This document shows positions 6,286-36,868 of a stretch of 37,294 nucleotides of DNA, piece after piece. The translations under genes were made by a program, and so were the position numbers. The notes under the pieces are model-generated. The model was not told the DNA's origin. It did no database searches and saw only the letters and a list, made by a program, of their open reading frames with translations. Position 1 is the first letter of the stretch. Each line of letters begins with the position of its first letter. Origin of the DNA: a virus; IMG/VR virus record IMGVR_UViG_3300048840_000030, positions 1 to 37,294 of that record, one strand, 5' to 3'.

Positions 6286-6522
6286 ATGACAGCAATAAAA
6301 TCAATTATGAAGGGGTGGGGCGAGGGGTCTGAGTTTTATGCGACATCTGAGCAGTATAAGGGTAATCATTGCCACGTAGATAGGATAAGGTGCGAAGAAG
6401 AGTTTATCGGCAAAGGTGTAGATGATGATTTAACCATTATGATGTATTCTGGGTATATAGAGGATAGACTAATATTCAAAATCGAAGCTAATTCAAGTTT
6501 AACGATTACATATAAGGAGTAG
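6286..6522 (+). CDS. Hypothetical protein
   Basis: 78 residues with leader AGGAGTAGTT; the same leader precedes the next gene. Mixed alpha/beta composition with an acidic GVDDDLT segment. No recognised family. Confidence 0.6.
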   Translation: MTAIKSIMKGWGEGSEFYATSEQYKGNHCHVDRIRCEEEFIGKGVDDDLTIMMYSGYIEDRLIFKIEANSSLTITYKE

Positions 6523-6524
6523 TT

Positions 6525-6851
6525 ATGGACGACAGCAAATTCGCAAAATTCATTTGGTTCAACTATCCACACCCCAAAGCCCCGGATTTCGTTAAGGGGA
6601 AAATATCGATTAAACGGGATGAATTTATGGATTGGTTGACCTTGCAGGACGTGAACGAAAAAGGATATGTTTATCTTAACGTTAAACAACCTAAAGACTC
6701 AAGTAAAAACCCGTACATGGAAATAAATGATTACGTGAAAGTAGACTCACAGTCAACTTCCAGCGGTCAAAACAAACCAACTACCGAGCAATTATCGGAT
6801 GTTGCTCAGGCGGACAACAGCGAAGAACCAGACAGCGATCTGCCATTTTGA
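6525..6851 (+). CDS. SSB-like protein with acidic DLPF tail
   Basis: 108 residues. The C-terminus ends EEPDSDLPF after a Ser/Gln/Asn-rich linker. This acidic DLPF tip is the protein-interaction tail of bacterial single-strand DNA-binding proteins, used to recruit partner enzymes. The N-terminal 75 residues (FKGKISIKRDEF, GYVYLNVKQP, PYMEIND) read as a small beta barrel resembling divergent phage SSBs, but without a textbook OB signature. Its place between recombination and replication genes fits. Confidence 0.7.
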   Translation: MDDSKFAKFIWFNYPHPKAPDFVKGKISIKRDEFMDWLTLQDVNEKGYVYLNVKQPKDSSKNPYMEINDYVKVDSQSTSSGQNKPTTEQLSDVAQADNSEEPDSDLPF

Positions 6852-8419
6852 ACAAATACCTAAATACCGTAACGTGTGGAAATTGTCTGGAGGTTCTTAA
6901 AGAGCTTCCAGATAATTCAGTTGATTCAATCGTAACCGATCCTCCTTATGGACTTTCTTTCATGGGCAAAAAGTGGGATTATGACGTTCCTTCAGTTGAG
7001 ATTTGGCAAGCGTGTTTAAGAGTGTTAAAGCCGGGCGGTTTCCTTTTATCATTCGCAGGGACCCGCACTCAACACAGAATGGCGGTCAACATTGAAGATG
7101 CAGGGTTTGAGATTCGTGATATGATTTTTTGGACTTATGCGAGCGGTTTCCCGAAATCACTAAACATTGAAAAACAATTACAGAAACTTTATGAGAAAAC
7201 AATATCCAGCGAACAGAAGACCGAACACGATTTGCGACCTTTGCGAAACTCCGATATATCGCAGACCATCAACATTAGCGAGGAACAAGGGGAAGTTTTG
7301 CAGTCGGAGTTGTCGGAACAAAGTATATCGGAATCAGGGGACGCCCCCAGTAATGCGAGGGAAGGACAACCCAGCATGGAAGGGCGGGGTAACACTAAAG
7401 AGAACTCACGGGAATTATCAAGGGACAACCTATCAGAGGTGCCCGAAGGAATACCTACCAATGGCAAGGAAGGACGGTTACATAATGCAACACCGATTGG
7501 TAATGGCTCAGAGTTTGAATCGACTATTAACAAGAACGGAGGTGGTACATCACATAGACCACAATCCGAGAAACAACAAGATAGAAAACCTGATGCTTTT
7601 TCCGAACAACAGATTACACAAGCTATACGAACATACAAAGGATTTGGCACAGCCCTTAAACCAAGTTGTGAACCCATCACCGTAGCCCGCAAGCCATTAT
7701 CTGAAAAGACCGTAGCTCAGAACGTGCTTAAATATGGAACTGGCGGGATCAATATAGACCAATGCCGAGTTGAGACAGAAGATAAAATTACTATTCACAA
7801 TAATCCAAAGCCATATTCTTTTAGCGGGAATAACTCTGATTTAGATTATAGGGCAAATACTCAAGGTCGTTTCCCTGCCAATCTCATTTTGGACGGCTCT
7901 GATGAAGTCGTGGCGGGGTTTCCTGAGACGAAGAGTGGGGGCTACCCGAAATTAGACGAGTCCTTTTCCGGCGAATCAAACATTACTTTCAGGACAAATG
8001 AAGTTAGGAGTGAAAGAATAAATTTAGACTCCGGTTCAGCCTCACGATTTTTTTATTGCGCTAAAGCATCAAAGCAAGATAGAGATGAGGGGCTGGAGGG
8101 GTTTGAGGGGGGTTACACAACAGAACAAAATAAGTGGACTGAAAATGATTATAGGAAAGGTGACGGAGAAAAAACAAAGCAACCAGTGAAAAACAACCAC
8201 CCGACAGTCAAACCAACCAAACTAATGCAATACCTTGTAAGATTAGTAACACCGAAAAACGGGATAGTATTAGACCCGTTCACAGGTTCAGGGAGTACGG
8301 GCAAGGCGTGTAAATTAGAAGGATTTAATTTCATAGGAATTGAGATGGAAAAAGAGTATGTTGAGATTGCTAAAGCGAGAATTGAAAACGTGAAACTACC
8401 AGACGGGGAGTTGTTTTAA
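6848..8419 (+). CDS. DNA methyltransferase (beta-type, DPPY) interrupted by a nested gene
   Basis: 523 residues from TTG 6848 (TTGA overlap with the SSB stop). Motif IV DPPY is at 31-34, followed by the SFMGKKWDYDVP, LSFAGTRTQHRMA and TYASGFPKSLN blocks. GFGTALKPSCEPI and ARKPLSEKTVA follow near 264-290, then NNHPTVKP and motif I LDPFTGSGST near 475-484. This order (IV before I) marks the N4-cytosine/N6-adenine permuted class. Residues about 115-262 are hydrophilic and Ser/Glu/Asn-rich with no family match. They coincide with an HNH gene read one base later. No restriction enzyme is nearby, so self-protection or epigenetic use is likely. Confidence 0.88.
   Translation: MNKYLNTVTCGNCLEVLKELPDNSVDSIVTDPPYGLSFMGKKWDYDVPSVEIWQACLRVLKPGGFLLSFAGTRTQHRMAVNIEDAGFEIRDMIFWTYASGFPKSLNIEKQLQKLYEKTISSEQKTEHDLRPLRNSDISQTINISEEQGEVLQSELSEQSISESGDAPSNAREGQPSMEGRGNTKENSRELSRDNLSEVPEGIPTNGKEGRLHNATPIGNGSEFESTINKNGGGTSHRPQSEKQQDRKPDAFSEQQITQAIRTYKGFGTALKPSCEPITVARKPLSEKTVAQNVLKYGTGGINIDQCRVETEDKITIHNNPKPYSFSGNNSDLDYRANTQGRFPANLILDGSDEVVAGFPETKSGGYPKLDESFSGESNITFRTNEVRSERINLDSGSASRFFYCAKASKQDRDEGLEGFEGGYTTEQNKWTENDYRKGDGEKTKQPVKNNHPTVKPTKLMQYLVRLVTPKNGIVLDPFTGSGSTGKACKLEGFNFIGIEMEKEYVEIAKARIENVKLPDGELF
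7191..7685 (+). CDS. HNH endonuclease nested in the methyltransferase gene (+1 frame)
   Basis: 164 residues from ATG 7191; TTG 7167 is also in frame. C15-x2-C18 and C37-x3-C41 form a zinc finger, followed by the WKGG motif (63-66). The catalytic block is GYIMQHRLVM, then VVHHIDHNPRNNKIENL (H120, H121, N133). This is the full layout of free-standing phage HNH nucleases that cut DNA to spread themselves. It lies wholly inside the methyltransferase gene, and its last 16 codons use bases that encode the conserved GFGTALKP segment of that enzyme. No clear Shine-Dalgarno is present, so expression may be low. Confidence 0.85.
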   Translation: MRKQYPANRRPNTICDLCETPIYRRPSTLARNKGKFCSRSCRNKVYRNQGTPPVMRGKDNPAWKGGVTLKRTHGNYQGTTYQRCPKEYLPMARKDGYIMQHRLVMAQSLNRLLTRTEVVHHIDHNPRNNKIENLMLFPNNRLHKLYEHTKDLAQPLNQVVNPSP

Positions 8420-9111
8420 TGGCAGAGAATAAGAAATCATTTGTTGCGTATTGTGATTGGGGTGCTATATTTGATGAACTTTCAGATGCAGAAGCAGGTA
8501 AATTAGCCAAGCATTTATTCGATTATGTCCGGGATAAAAACCCCAAGCCTGACAAAATTACCAAATTGACGTTCATCCAAATTCAGCAAACTCTTAAACG
8601 GGATTTAAAGAAATATGAGGAATATGTTGAAAGACAGCGCATAAACGGACAAAAAGGTGGCAGACCAGAGAAACCCAAAAAACCCAAGCCTTATTTGGCT
8701 AACCCACTCGAACCCAAAAAAGGCGATAGTGTTAATGATACTGTTAATGTAAATGATAAAGATATAAACATAGATAGTAATGAATATGAATTAAGCAAAC
8801 TATTATTCGACCTTATCAAAAAACGCAACCCAAACCATAAACAACCCGACCTTAAAAGCTGGGCGAAACACATCGACTTAATGATACGAATAGACAAAAG
8901 GACTATTGATGAAATCAGAGGTTGTATAAATTGGTGTCAACAGGATCCGTTCTGGCAGAACAATATTTTAAGCACGGCAAAGTTAAGAAAACAATTTGAT
9001 ACATTATATCTCAAAGCAAAAGGGAGCAAAGATGGAATTTCAGCAAGCATTACAGAAGATAAGCTCAGACGGATTGCCGAATCAATCGCTAATGACGACA
9101 GACTCAAATAG
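8419..9111 (+). CDS. Replication protein, DUF6291/replisome-organiser type
   Basis: 230 residues. The N-terminal part (KKSFVAYCDWGAIFDELSDA, then EAGKLAKHLFDYVRDKNPKP) matches DUF6291 phage proteins. A charged linker (GQKGGRPEKPKKPKP) and an Asn/Asp-rich stretch follow. The C-terminal block DLMIRIDKRTIDEIRGCINW, then CQQDPFWQNNILSTAKLR, is typical of phage replication initiation proteins of the DnaD-like group. It probably loads the host helicase at the phage origin. The ATG overlaps the methyltransferase stop. Confidence 0.75.
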   Translation: MAENKKSFVAYCDWGAIFDELSDAEAGKLAKHLFDYVRDKNPKPDKITKLTFIQIQQTLKRDLKKYEEYVERQRINGQKGGRPEKPKKPKPYLANPLEPKKGDSVNDTVNVNDKDINIDSNEYELSKLLFDLIKKRNPNHKQPDLKSWAKHIDLMIRIDKRTIDEIRGCINWCQQDPFWQNNILSTAKLRKQFDTLYLKAKGSKDGISASITEDKLRRIAESIANDDRLK

Positions 9112-17678: not shown

Positions 17679-18319
17679 TAGAACTCTTAAACATAGATTG
17701 CATGGAATACATGAAGACGCTTGAAGATAATGCGTTTGAGCTGGCGATAGTTGACCCGCCTTATGGCGTGAATATCTTGTCACAATTCAAGTCTGCGGGT
17801 TATTTAGAGACAAAATCAATGTTTAAGCAGACGAAGGGGATAGTGAATAACGATTGGGATTCTGCAATACCAGACAAGAGTTATTTTGACGAATTATTCA
17901 GGGTGAGTAAGAATCAAATTATTTGGGGAGGAAACTATTTTATTGACCACTTACATTCTACCAAGTGCATGATTTCGTGGGACAAGATGAACGGCACGAA
18001 TAACATGGCAGACTTTGAGTTGGCGTGGGCAAGTTTTGATAAGGGCTGTAGGCGCTTTTCAATGCACCACTTCTCAGGTGGGTATGGTAAGAAAATACAC
18101 ATTTGCCAAAAGCCCGTAAAACTCTACAAATGGCTCTTAAAGAACTACGCAAAAGAGGGTGACAGAATACTCGACACTCATTTAGGAAGCGGTTCAATAG
18201 CAATAGCATGCGATGAAATGGGCTTCGATTTAGTAGGAATGGAAATAGATAAAGATTATTATGACGGTGCAGTAAAGAGATTAACAGAGCATCAAGATCA
18301 GTATAAAATGGTGATATAA
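17675..18319 (+). CDS. Second DNA methyltransferase (DPPY type)
   Basis: 214 residues. DPPY at 27-30, then KNQIIWGGNYFIDHL, MISWDKMNG and a C-terminal ILDTHLGSGSIAIACDEMGF (motif I) with VGMEID. Small phage enzymes of this plan usually make N6-methyladenine. It is inserted between terminase and portal, which is not a usual place, so it may be a recent gain or tied to packaging. No partner nuclease. Confidence 0.88.
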   Translation: MIELLNIDCMEYMKTLEDNAFELAIVDPPYGVNILSQFKSAGYLETKSMFKQTKGIVNNDWDSAIPDKSYFDELFRVSKNQIIWGGNYFIDHLHSTKCMISWDKMNGTNNMADFELAWASFDKGCRRFSMHHFSGGYGKKIHICQKPVKLYKWLLKNYAKEGDRILDTHLGSGSIAIACDEMGFDLVGMEIDKDYYDGAVKRLTEHQDQYKMVI

Positions 18320-18321
18320 CT

Positions 18322-19686
18322 ATGACAACACAAGACTGGATTGATTTAATTGAGACATACAAGGTAAAGAACGAATCGGAAGTAATAGCTTCGATAATTG
18401 AGAGTAATAAATCGACACAAGACGCTATTCATACTAATTGGTTACACTACAAAGGAGATGTACCGATAAAAGACAGGACTTTAGCTGTTGGGAATGAACA
18501 CAAACTCAACAATAAAATATCCAACGACTTCAGAGGACATAACGTAGATCAATGTAACGGTTATATGTTCGCCACTCCGATAGTGTATCAATTCGATGAC
18601 CAAGCGCAAACGGACACCTTAACAAAATGGCACGATAGGAATAACATTGAAGATTTAGACTCTATTACTGGAACTTATCAAGGTGCATGTGGTTATGCAG
18701 TTAGGTTGTTATATATCGATTCTGAAGGTACTGAAAAGGTGAAAAACTCTAACCCCTGGGAGTATATCTTCATCGAAAACGGATCTATTGAAGAGGTTGA
18801 ATACGTTCTAAGATATTATGATGTCGATTACTGGATAGATAACGCATGGCAGAAAAGGCGCAAAGTCGAATGGTACGATAATACAACGATAACTTATTAT
18901 ATCTCAGCGGATGATAAATTAAATGAAAACGTTGAGTACGTTAAAGACGACACCGAAAAGCAGAACCCACAATTTCACATGTTCGATCTACCTCCGGTGG
19001 TTAAGTTTAAGAACAACGAATTAGAGCAATCCGACTTCCACAAATCAGCCGACAAAATAGACGCTTTCGATCGGGTTGTTTCAGACTGTCAGAACGAGAT
19101 TGAAGAGTTTAGGTTAGCCTATATGTTGTTTTTTGGTATTAACCCAGACATAGATGATATAGAAAGAGCCCGAGCTGCTGGTGCTTTTGGCTTGGGTGCG
19201 GAAGATCGTGTAGAATTCTTAACCAAAACAATAAACGATGTATTTGTCCAGAACACCAAAGCAACACTTGAAGAGGGAATTTACAGAGACGGGCGAGCTG
19301 TTAATATGTCAGATGAAAAGTTTTCAGGATCAGCACAATCCGGTGAATCAAGGCGTTGGAAGTTAATTGATCTGGAAAACAAGGCAAAGAAAAAAGAGCG
19401 TAAATTCAAACGGGGAACACAAGATGAGTTGAGGATATTATCGACAGCATGGGCAAAGAAGAAAATTATCATAGATCCTGAAACCTTAACGATGACATTC
19501 ACAAGGACTTTACCAGTCGATTTACTTTATGAGGCAGAAGTACAACAGAAATTAAACGGAATAGTTCCGGATGAGTTGAGACTTGCTCAAGCGTCATTTG
19601 TAGACGACCCAGCGGAAACAGCAAACCAATTAAAGGCAGAAATGCCGGAAATAGATTTAGACACAATCGTGGATGAAGATGTATAA
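18322..19686 (+). CDS. Portal protein, SPP1 gp6 type
   Basis: 454 residues. The N-terminal NKLNNKISNDFRGHNVDQCN, the stem KFKNNELEQSDFHKSADKID with AFDRVVSDCQNEI, and the clip/crown helices near the C-terminus match the SPP1-like portal family. Twelve copies form the DNA channel at the capsid vertex. Acidic C-terminal tail. Upstream terL and downstream Mu F-like gene confirm the module. Confidence 0.9.
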   Translation: MTTQDWIDLIETYKVKNESEVIASIIESNKSTQDAIHTNWLHYKGDVPIKDRTLAVGNEHKLNNKISNDFRGHNVDQCNGYMFATPIVYQFDDQAQTDTLTKWHDRNNIEDLDSITGTYQGACGYAVRLLYIDSEGTEKVKNSNPWEYIFIENGSIEEVEYVLRYYDVDYWIDNAWQKRRKVEWYDNTTITYYISADDKLNENVEYVKDDTEKQNPQFHMFDLPPVVKFKNNELEQSDFHKSADKIDAFDRVVSDCQNEIEEFRLAYMLFFGINPDIDDIERARAAGAFGLGAEDRVEFLTKTINDVFVQNTKATLEEGIYRDGRAVNMSDEKFSGSAQSGESRRWKLIDLENKAKKKERKFKRGTQDELRILSTAWAKKKIIIDPETLTMTFTRTLPVDLLYEAEVQQKLNGIVPDELRLAQASFVDDPAETANQLKAEMPEIDLDTIVDEDV

Positions 19687-33791: not shown

Positions 33792-34190
33792 ATGAAAAAA
33801 ATACTTTTATTCATGCTGATATTCAGCACACTGGCCTTCGGGCAGTCTATTGTTCATACTGGAACATTAACAAATATTGATACTGCGGACGTTAAATTTT
33901 ATGGTTTGTACGAATACGTTTCAGTTGTTATAGTTGATACTGCGGCGGTAGCTACAGATTCAATAAGTTTCTTTGTTGCAGACAAGGACTCAACATATTG
34001 GTCACAAGTTGGGGTTATAAAGCAAAGTGATAAAGTCTTTTATGACTTCGCTACAACAGCAGACACCACGACTAAATATTTAATTTATGAACCTTCAGTA
34101 TATCATTTGCGGATTGTAAAAACAACCGAAACAGCAACAGCAGATGGTGTACTTAGTTATTTGGCAGAAGGTAAAAGGAGAAACAAATGA
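33792..34190 (+). CDS. Exported beta-rich protein
   Basis: 132 residues. MKKILLFMLIFSTLAFGQ is a standard Sec signal peptide with cleavage near AFGQ. The mature part is beta-rich and polar (VSVVIVDTAAVATDSISFFV). It has no lipobox. Directly coupled to the next gene (ATGA). An exported protein next to fibre genes is unusual. Confidence 0.65.
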   Translation: MKKILLFMLIFSTLAFGQSIVHTGTLTNIDTADVKFYGLYEYVSVVIVDTAAVATDSISFFVADKDSTYWSQVGVIKQSDKVFYDFATTADTTTKYLIYEPSVYHLRIVKTTETATADGVLSYLAEGKRRNK

Positions 34191-36868
34191 AAAAGTTACT
34201 CTTAATTTTATTTATTCCCTTAATGCTTAATGCCCAAGATTGGTTTTCAACTAATCACTGGAAAGAATCTTCAGGAGTATTGCAGCCGGTTAAAACAACA
34301 TGGACTTTAACACTTCCGACCATTACGTTTACGGGAACTTATACAACCAGCGTTCTTGATTTCTCAGGCGTTATAATGAATTACACGGGTTCCAATGGAC
34401 CTGCATTTATACGAGGTGGAACTTATGCTTCGCCCGTAACATCAAGTGATGCAGGACAAAGCGGTATGATAAGATTGTACGGTTCAAACTCATCTACTAC
34501 AGATGATGAATCAACTGGATATTATGATAGAGGGATTTTCGTAAACAATCAAATCACAGGAAATAAGGGAGCGTTCCCGATTGCAGGTCTTGTTGAAATT
34601 CGTGACGTTGGGGCTGAAGCTGGGCCAGTAGCCGCTGTGGCAGGTCAGTTTATCGCTCACATGACTGCAGCGGGTTCTAAATTAGCCGCAGGTGCAGGCG
34701 GAACTGATGGAATGTTCGGTACTTGGAACAAGGTAGCTTCAGCCGTTGGTTCTGTTGCCGCTGCGACTTCAAGGGTTGCTCCGATTTGGATTGACAATCA
34801 GATGTCCGGAACCGTGAGCGGTGAAGAATACGGAATATTCGCAACCGCTGGCGGACTTCCGCCAGATGCTTTTATAGGTTTTGAAACTACCTCTTCCGGT
34901 TGGGATCAATTATTTTATTTCGATGAAACGGCTTACGATCAAGCTCCTGTTTCTGATACCGACTTCTTAAAAGTGTTAATGAATGGCGATCAATATTACA
35001 TGCCTTTATCATCCACATCTGGAACGGTAACTTTTGACGGTGCAGTAGCAGCCGCCTCATACACAGGAGATGGTTCAGCACTTACAGGTGTGGGCGGTGG
35101 CGATTCATCATGGGTAAGCATAACGGTTACCGATAGTGCATCAATAGACAGTCTCTACGCAAACGTGACGTTCAACGGCGACACCGCAACGGGTGATGTT
35201 GATGTGTTTAATTATTTCTCAACTAATAATTCTTACACAAACGAATACCTAAAGTGGGATGATGGGGATTCAGAATTTCAGTTGAGTGATGATTTAGAAG
35301 TTACGGGCATAGTTGATGCTTCGGGAAATGTTAGTGCAGGTGCTTCAACTTTAACTACCAATTCATTAACTCTTAATACTAATCTTTTCGAGATTGACTA
35401 TAGTGCTGGCACTAATCGAATAACCACATATCAACAAATGCTCTTTAATATTGCGACTGGTGGTATGGCTACAGCAAACGCTTATGAATTTTCAAGTGTC
35501 GTACCCTTAACTGCGTCTGCAACAGAGCAGGCATTTGTAAAATACGCTCCCAACATAACGCAAACAGGTACAGGTAACTGGGTCGGTCTTCTAATGGACG
35601 CAACAATAAATTCTGAAGGCTCCGGCACAAACGAACTCATGGCTTTGCGAGTTGGCGGAGTTGATAAGTTTACGGTTGGGAATACAGGCAACACAACCAT
35701 TGCAGGTAACCTCTTCACAGGTGACACAACCACAGCAGACACGGATGTATTCCATTATTTCTCAACCGATAATTCCTACACCACAGAATACCTAAAGTGG
35801 GATGATGGTAACGATAGATTTGAGTTAAGTGACGCCCTAACTGTATCTAATGGGGGTGTTAACCCGATGCTTCTAGACTATTATTTAATCAATTCTACTG
35901 TAAATTTGGATTTGCAAGGTACATATATGCAGTTTTATACAGATGGTTCACGTTTATCAGGGGATATGTTCTCATTTAAGGAGTCTGGTACTGCTGAATT
36001 AACAGATACAGATGGTGAACAAGCATATATGGGTGTTTACCCGCAAATCAACCAATCAGGCACGGCTAGTTATATCGGTCTTTTGCTGGATGCAACCGAA
36101 ACCTCACTAGGCTCCGGCATAAACGAACTCATGGCTTTAAGAGTTGGTGGTGCGGATAAGTTTACGGTTGGGAATACAGGCAACACAGATATAGCAGGTG
36201 ATCTAGACGTTACAGGCGACCAGACAAAGTACGGTGAAATGTATATGTATGAATCTGCGGGAACTGCAACGATACAAATCACCAATCAATATTACGCAGC
36301 TTTTGGAGTTTTCTCTGAAGGAACTGTAAACGGTTTTACGATGGTTGCAGGTGAGGGCGGAGCAATTTCAGCGACTTCAACAGCCGCAGGTTCGTGGGTT
36401 GCTTTGACAAGCGCAGGACATACTTTATCAGCAGGTGATTACGTTTGTATAAACGGAACTGCAACTTACAACGGAAACGAATTAGTTGATTCAGTTGACG
36501 GTAATGATTTCTACATAACAGCAACCAATTCCGAAGCAGACGAGGGCGGTGCGGATTCTGATTTTCAGTCAGGTGATTATCTATTAGCGAGTGCGGGGAC
36601 AGCCGGAAAGTTCGTGATAAACTTCTCTATGACAATTTCCTCTGCGGCAGCTGCAAAAGAATATAAATTTGAATGTGTGCAAAATGCAACTGATTTAGAT
36701 AAGGGTGCTTTCAATATTACTCCGGCAGGAACGAATCATGCTTCCGGTAGTGTATGTTCAATAGTCACCATAACAGCAGGTGATAGAATTTGGATGAAAT
36801 TCAAAAATGAAACAGACGCACAGGACTTGGCATATCAACATGCAAACGTGACATTACATAAATTATAA
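34187..36868 (+). CDS. Large fibre-like protein with Sec signal peptide and internal repeats
   Basis: 893 residues. MKKLLLILFIPLMLNAQ is a clear signal peptide. Shaft-type motifs follow (SYTGDGSALTGVGGG near 295). Two copies of a module begin near residues 336 and 516 (STNNSYTNEYLKWDDG, STDNSYTTEYLKWDDG), each followed by a segment at about 456 and 621 with NELMALRVGG and DKFTVGNTGNT. A beta module (SAGDYVCINGTATYNGNELV) is near 740, and a TNF-like C-terminal knob near 800-893 ends TLHKL. It looks like a tail fibre, yet it is built for export. Confidence 0.75.
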   Translation: MKKLLLILFIPLMLNAQDWFSTNHWKESSGVLQPVKTTWTLTLPTITFTGTYTTSVLDFSGVIMNYTGSNGPAFIRGGTYASPVTSSDAGQSGMIRLYGSNSSTTDDESTGYYDRGIFVNNQITGNKGAFPIAGLVEIRDVGAEAGPVAAVAGQFIAHMTAAGSKLAAGAGGTDGMFGTWNKVASAVGSVAAATSRVAPIWIDNQMSGTVSGEEYGIFATAGGLPPDAFIGFETTSSGWDQLFYFDETAYDQAPVSDTDFLKVLMNGDQYYMPLSSTSGTVTFDGAVAAASYTGDGSALTGVGGGDSSWVSITVTDSASIDSLYANVTFNGDTATGDVDVFNYFSTNNSYTNEYLKWDDGDSEFQLSDDLEVTGIVDASGNVSAGASTLTTNSLTLNTNLFEIDYSAGTNRITTYQQMLFNIATGGMATANAYEFSSVVPLTASATEQAFVKYAPNITQTGTGNWVGLLMDATINSEGSGTNELMALRVGGVDKFTVGNTGNTTIAGNLFTGDTTTADTDVFHYFSTDNSYTTEYLKWDDGNDRFELSDALTVSNGGVNPMLLDYYLINSTVNLDLQGTYMQFYTDGSRLSGDMFSFKESGTAELTDTDGEQAYMGVYPQINQSGTASYIGLLLDATETSLGSGINELMALRVGGADKFTVGNTGNTDIAGDLDVTGDQTKYGEMYMYESAGTATIQITNQYYAAFGVFSEGTVNGFTMVAGEGGAISATSTAAGSWVALTSAGHTLSAGDYVCINGTATYNGNELVDSVDGNDFYITATNSEADEGGADSDFQSGDYLLASAGTAGKFVINFSMTISSAAAAKEYKFECVQNATDLDKGAFNITPAGTNHASGSVCSIVTITAGDRIWMKFKNETDAQDLAYQHANVTLHKL

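Follow-up and report, generated by a model that had tools for sequence, protein, structure and literature searches.

A stop-free, in-frame insertion in a phage DNA methyltransferase gene carries a putative homing HNH endonuclease gene in its +1 frame

Results

The methyltransferase locus

The window analysed here comprises positions 1-37,294 of IMG/VR record IMGVR_UViG_3300048840_000030 and is a tailed-phage record, with genes for a terminase, portal, minor head protein, tape measure, Erf-like annealing protein, RecE-like exonuclease and DnaD-like loader; related loci that were compared with it are given L-numbers. Between an upstream gene that ends at 6851 and a helicase-loader gene that begins at 8419, the plus strand carries a 523-aa N4/N6 DNA-methyltransferase (MTase) ORF at 6848-8419 (PF01555, 1.8e-38; phrog_67, 1.3e-77), here termed the host gene. 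Its DPPY motif (near residue 31) and its FxGxG-like motif, DPFTGSGSTG (near residue 476), lie within one ORF on either side of the insert described below and are nearly invariant in the MTase alignment (A3), and the encoded enzyme is presumably active in methylation. Elsewhere in the window, an 893-aa ORF downstream of the tape-measure gene (34187-36868) is without any PHROG match, and antisense ORFs of more than 100 aa at 6366-6689 (-) and 17958-18362 (-) overlap sense ORFs and are probably by-products of composition.

Nested in the +1 frame of the MTase gene is a complete HNH endonuclease ORF (7191-7685, plus strand, from an ATG; a TTG at 7167 is a possible alternative start), which matches PF13392 (HNH_3, 9.6e-8) and 11 PHROG HNH families. 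Both frames are open over this stretch, as a preliminary description of the DNA had proposed, and the motifs which it listed are present and, in the alignment of HNH relatives (A1), invariant or nearly so. These are the zinc-finger module (C15, C18, C37 and C41; 7233-7313), the invariant WKGG motif (7377-7388) and the catalytic core EVVHHIDHNPRNNKIENL (7539-7592), in which the catalytic His/Asn residues are conserved (VVHHIDHN..N..NL) and which falls in the PF13392 match (residues 109-149 of the ORF as read from 7167). Solved structures were also searched by sequence, and neither the HNH profile nor an intein-ends query matched any of them. No Shine-Dalgarno sequence precedes the HNH ORF in the window (duplex energies of 0.2 and 0.1 kcal/mol, compared with about -5 to -6 for typical gene starts in the window), so that translation of this copy is presumed; strong Shine-Dalgarno sequences are present at the HNH of some relatives (-12.6 kcal/mol in L013 and -11.1 in L098).

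When the HNH protein is kept constant and its synonymous codons are sampled from the codon usage of the window, exact computation gives 14.7 expected MTase-frame stops over the HNH ORF, of which none is seen (P=2.2e-9); the earlier estimate of odds below one in a thousand was thus conservative. The antisense frame at 7189-7692 (-) is open too, as had been remarked, but the same phase is stop-free in only 9 of 78 relatives and has no Pfam or PHROG match; we therefore reject it as a third gene and regard it as a by-product.

The insert as read in the host frame

Alignment with insert-free relatives (L198, L273, L260, L265, L303 and L216) places the in-frame insert at approximately 7181-7633 (plus strand), where the MTase frame encodes ~150 hydrophilic residues that are predicted to be disordered. 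L198 aligns on both sides of the gap, with 82% identity before the insert and 59% after it. The insert occupies the loop between GFPKS and GFGTALKP, which is 20-24 aa at its shortest in insert-free relatives; because its length varies among them the loop is a tolerant one, and for the same reason the gap, expected at 7185-7635, is clean in position but has no boundary definable to the base. AF2 predictions for the window MTase give pLDDT values of 83-98 for most of the flanking core and of 30-45 for the insert (residues 122-260), and L046 behaves likewise.

The C-terminal tail of the HNH protein reads through the conserved host segment GFGTALKP (7640-7663, plus strand; L270, K271 and P272 invariant in A3), so that these bases serve both frames, by ~14 codons rather than the 16 claimed previously; the window HNH continues to 7685, with its stop at 7683-7685. 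In 22 of 46 bare inserts (including L003, L004 and L110; example GCTCTAAAAC) the conserved Leu-Lys codons of the host's ALKP, read out of frame, themselves provide the HNH stop, and in other bare inserts it comes from the Leu-Gly of GLGTA.

In 32 of 45 bare inserts (including L046, L067 and L110), the overprinted part is flanked in the host frame by a CxC immediately upstream and a CxxC immediately downstream. The pair occurs in none of ~150 distinct insert-free loops, five that were flagged being copies of nested loci; targeted searches of viral contigs for insert-free relatives with CxC..CxxC found none, and there are none among the annotated-record matches listed. The window has lost these cysteines, although both motifs are present in its nearest relatives, L110 and L001. 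The pattern suggests a possible clasp, in which a zinc knuckle would hold the loop shut at its base; the pLDDT of the cysteine regions in L046 (only ~50-60) is too low to be decisive.

Conservation of the nested pair

Searches for the HNH in IMG/VR and in GTDB (a single genome for each species), together with other loci collected, gave 102 distinct HNH loci after clustering at 90% nucleotide identity. The nested pair that the preliminary description had proposed to seek is common among them: 80 loci are nested in an MTase with the relative frame of the window, in 6 the HNH is nested in the opposite frame, and the other 16 are non-nested. Strong matches (>120 bits) divide into 78 nested and 4 non-nested loci, in a set that was collected by similarity to nested HNHs and is hence enriched for nested copies, and in which nesting is defined by open frames. 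Over the 78 nested loci, 951 host-frame stops are expected and 0 observed, a total over relatives that share ancestry and are not independent. In contrast, homologues that are freestanding or that split genes have many stops in that frame, i.e. 23 in L002, where the HNH sits after another MTase, and 18 and 33, respectively, in L064 (1500-3600) and L070 (900-3000), where it splits a related MTase into two ORFs; the GC-rich, non-nested L117 has 1. Although such controls are few, they imply that the HNH sequence of the family alone does not keep the host frame open. No relative was found to have the same insert without the HNH, which had been named as a finding that would count against nesting. 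Nested pairs also occur in named strains, in Cupriavidus necator UYPR2.512 (chromosome 2; L113) and Antribacter gilvus (L120).

Selection in the two frames

Substitution rates were compared in both frames, as had been suggested, by classing isolated differences between 20 pairs of relatives according to their effect in each frame; totals over loci are not independent trials, owing to the shared ancestry of the relatives and to the enrichment of the set for nested copies. Transitions that are synonymous for the HNH occur at rates of 0.218 when MTase-synonymous and 0.222 when MTase-nonsynonymous, whereas the corresponding rates for HNH-nonsynonymous transitions are 0.033 (MTase-synonymous) and 0.026 (nonsynonymous in both). 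HNH-synonymous changes that create an MTase-frame stop were seen at 0 of 791 sites, with ~150 expected at the neutral rate (both directions being counted, so ~75 events). These rates indicate that purifying selection acts strongly on the protein of the HNH frame, and that the MTase frame over the insert has no amino-acid constraint and is selected only to stay stop-free: host-frame residues appear free to change, but never to stop. The 'overprinted protein' of the preliminary description should be understood as filler free of constraint and not as a second functional protein.

Bare and intein architectures

The nested copies are of two architectures, ~48 being bare like that of the window and ~30 lying within an intein of the same MTase. 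In the latter the host frame reads WxYG|CLSEDTE...SRNHRCLVERxG...FVARRNGKVFVTGN|SGFPKS; the HNH occupies the +1 frame between these intein ends, and the site is ~15 residues from the insertion site in the window. The HNH tree requires ~6 switches between the bare and intein forms (shuffled mean 23.7), of which well-supported branches force only one; one and the same HNH, with its relative frame unchanged, has thus served in both contexts. In the papers searched we found no account of an overprinted HNH within an intein, although such inteins may be mentioned in the preprint 10.1101/2025.01.02.630785 on actinobacteriophage intein architecture.

Two overprinted HNHs were observed in single MTase ORFs of L050 (1864-4590), L082 (1777-4467), L089 (1588-5046) and L104 (1786-5361). 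In L050, L082 and L089, an intein-type HNH is accompanied in the same MTase by a second HNH in the opposite (ShiLan-like, see below) relative frame. In L162 (509-916), the loop that holds the insert in the window carries a weakly related HNH, overprinted in the opposite relative frame and probably an independent event. The double HNHs of L050, L082 and L089, along with L162, suggest that overprinting probably arose more than once.

Distribution and mobility

Inserts are scattered among insert-free genes on the tree of the MTase core (FastTree, long branches flagged), with at least 16 changes forced by well-supported branches alone. L006 and L007 share a 100% identical block of ~600 nt that spans the HNH (614-1099 in L006), with 83-87% identity in nearby windows on both sides, which we read as a homing footprint. 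Both the scatter on the tree and the L006/L007 pair give a patchy distribution of the kind that homing would produce.

Discussion

The combined observations make it very probable that the window carries a homing HNH gene which has been inserted, in the +1 frame, into a tolerant surface loop of the MTase without disturbing the host frame, and which spreads without truncating its host gene. The proposal of a selfish nuclease inserted in frame, with the host frame kept open, is thus borne out by the ratio of nested to non-nested strong matches and by the selection seen, for protein in the HNH frame and only for the absence of stops in the MTase frame. In the mechanism that we propose, the selfish gene would insert in frame into the loop and, being without host-frame stops, would let ribosomes on the MTase pass through it, adding ~150 residues of predicted disorder. 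Internal initiation on the MTase transcript would yield the HNH protein, which would cut insert-free MTase copies near the conserved GFPKS/ALKP codons; repair from an occupied copy would then move the element. As the host enzyme is lengthened and not truncated, the element can dispense with both intron and intein. In some phages the MTase might be non-functional, and the frame kept open only through recent movement of the element.

HNH homing endonucleases are common in phage group I introns. An intron (of group I, group II or a novel type) with an HNH ORF, spliced from the mRNA, would accord with this usual home, and RNA evidence of one was the other finding named in advance as counting against nesting. 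No Rfam match at E<=1 was found over 6500-8700, however, and none at the gathering threshold in 13 related loci, so that there is no sign of ribozyme structure; moreover, the ORF takes up nearly all of the insert, leaving little space for a ribozyme, and the complete avoidance of host-frame stops would be superfluous in an intron. We consider splicing at the RNA level highly improbable. Removal at the protein level, i.e. the segment being a degenerate intein, gains some plausibility from the ~30 relatives in which the same HNH lies out of frame in a recognisable intein at WxYG|C...GN|SGFPKS. The splicing blocks of these relatives (C at the N end, GN|S at the C end) are, however, absent from the window, where the insert starts after GFPKS and not before it, and the host-frame segment is predicted to be disordered and lacks amino-acid constraint (type I pairs); we reject an intein in the window as highly improbable too.

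A functional role for the host-frame segment, for example as a DNA-recognition loop selected in its own right, is somewhat less remote, though still unlikely. The cysteine pairs that flank the overprinted part in most bare inserts and are absent from the ~150 insert-free loops point in its direction, but the window has none of these cysteines, any constraint would be limited to the edges, and over the overprinted part the rate of MTase-nonsynonymous changes matches that of MTase-synonymous ones. Decay may likewise be asked of the window copy, which has no Shine-Dalgarno sequence, and L015, a broken copy of the element, shows that such copies exist. A dead insertion that is still open in both frames by chance is nonetheless very unlikely given its intact HNH motifs, the strong purifying selection that acts across the family on the HNH frame, and the small probability of the open host frame.

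Claims of overlapping genes in prokaryotes are seldom convincing; the present case is unusually clean, in that one frame is constrained as protein and the other only to be stop-free, with freestanding homologues as a natural control. What had been a curiosity of a few mycobacteriophages appears to be a strategy widely used by phages of many environments, and one nested copy lies in a named bacterial strain, C. necator UYPR2.512. Inteins with an endonuclease in another frame would escape gene callers and intein surveys, and the host protein would resemble a methylase with odd filler. A broader proposal, for and against which we see the case as evenly poised, is that overprinting is a third widespread host-sparing way beside introns and inteins, operating under a pure no-stop rule, with the same HNH used in bare loops and in the endonuclease slot of inteins; the bare form would often tie off its loop at the base with a zinc knuckle, encoded in two parts in the host frame, and would borrow conserved host codons for its stop.

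The element shares with intron- and intein-encoded HNH homing endonucleases, such as I-HmuI, the presumed homing of a zinc-finger HNH into a conserved gene, but differs in that host function is spared by overprinting and not by RNA or protein splicing. Rickettsia palindromic elements are in-frame repeats, i.e. mobile DNA that is read through as a tolerated protein loop. The window element would resemble them in being mobile DNA tolerated in this way, and differs in that they are not known to encode an endonuclease in a second frame.

The closest known system is the 'ShiLan domain' (Arsenault, Gosselin and Gogarten 2025, PMC11855218), an out-of-frame HNH in a stop-free insertion in mycobacteriophage methylases, for which homing was proposed; phage Applejack is another case (PMC12613952). 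The selfish-nuclease arrangement of the preliminary description, although supported, had already been published for mycobacteriophages. A segment in the MTase ORF of Mycobacterium phage Mantra (1389-3764 in L026), in-frame and LAGLIDADG-like (WLAGLIDGEGCF) and near the N-terminal catalytic region, probably corresponds to the lone LAGLIDADG insertion to which PMC11855218 refers. The methylase intein of ShiLan (L206) has the same insertion site and intein ends as our intein relatives (C-terminal block 47-86% identical); its endonuclease part is in-frame and LAGLIDADG-like, whereas the intein relatives have an HNH in the +1 frame instead and the window has no intein.

Like the ShiLan domain, the window element is a stop-free in-frame insertion in a phage N4/N6 MTase, open in the methylase frame, with a zinc-finger HNH in another frame, a disordered host-frame product, a patchy distribution, no intron or intein and no clear ribosome-binding site. 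It is not the ShiLan domain proper, which lies after TALKPSYEPVCVAVKP (TALKP..EP..VA.KP) with the MTase in frame HNH+1 (the 'third' frame), whereas the window insert lies between GFPKS and ALKP with the MTase in frame HNH-1; its HNH belongs to another subfamily (~31% identity to that of ShiLan), and elements of its type, unlike the ShiLan domain, occur in many phages outside the actinobacteriophages. New, as far as we have checked, are the lineage of the window, the overprinted intein form, the possible zinc clasp and the supply of HNH stops by host codons. Judged from these sequence comparisons, the window element is of the same kind as the ShiLan domain described in 2025, and differs from it in site, relative frame and HNH subfamily.
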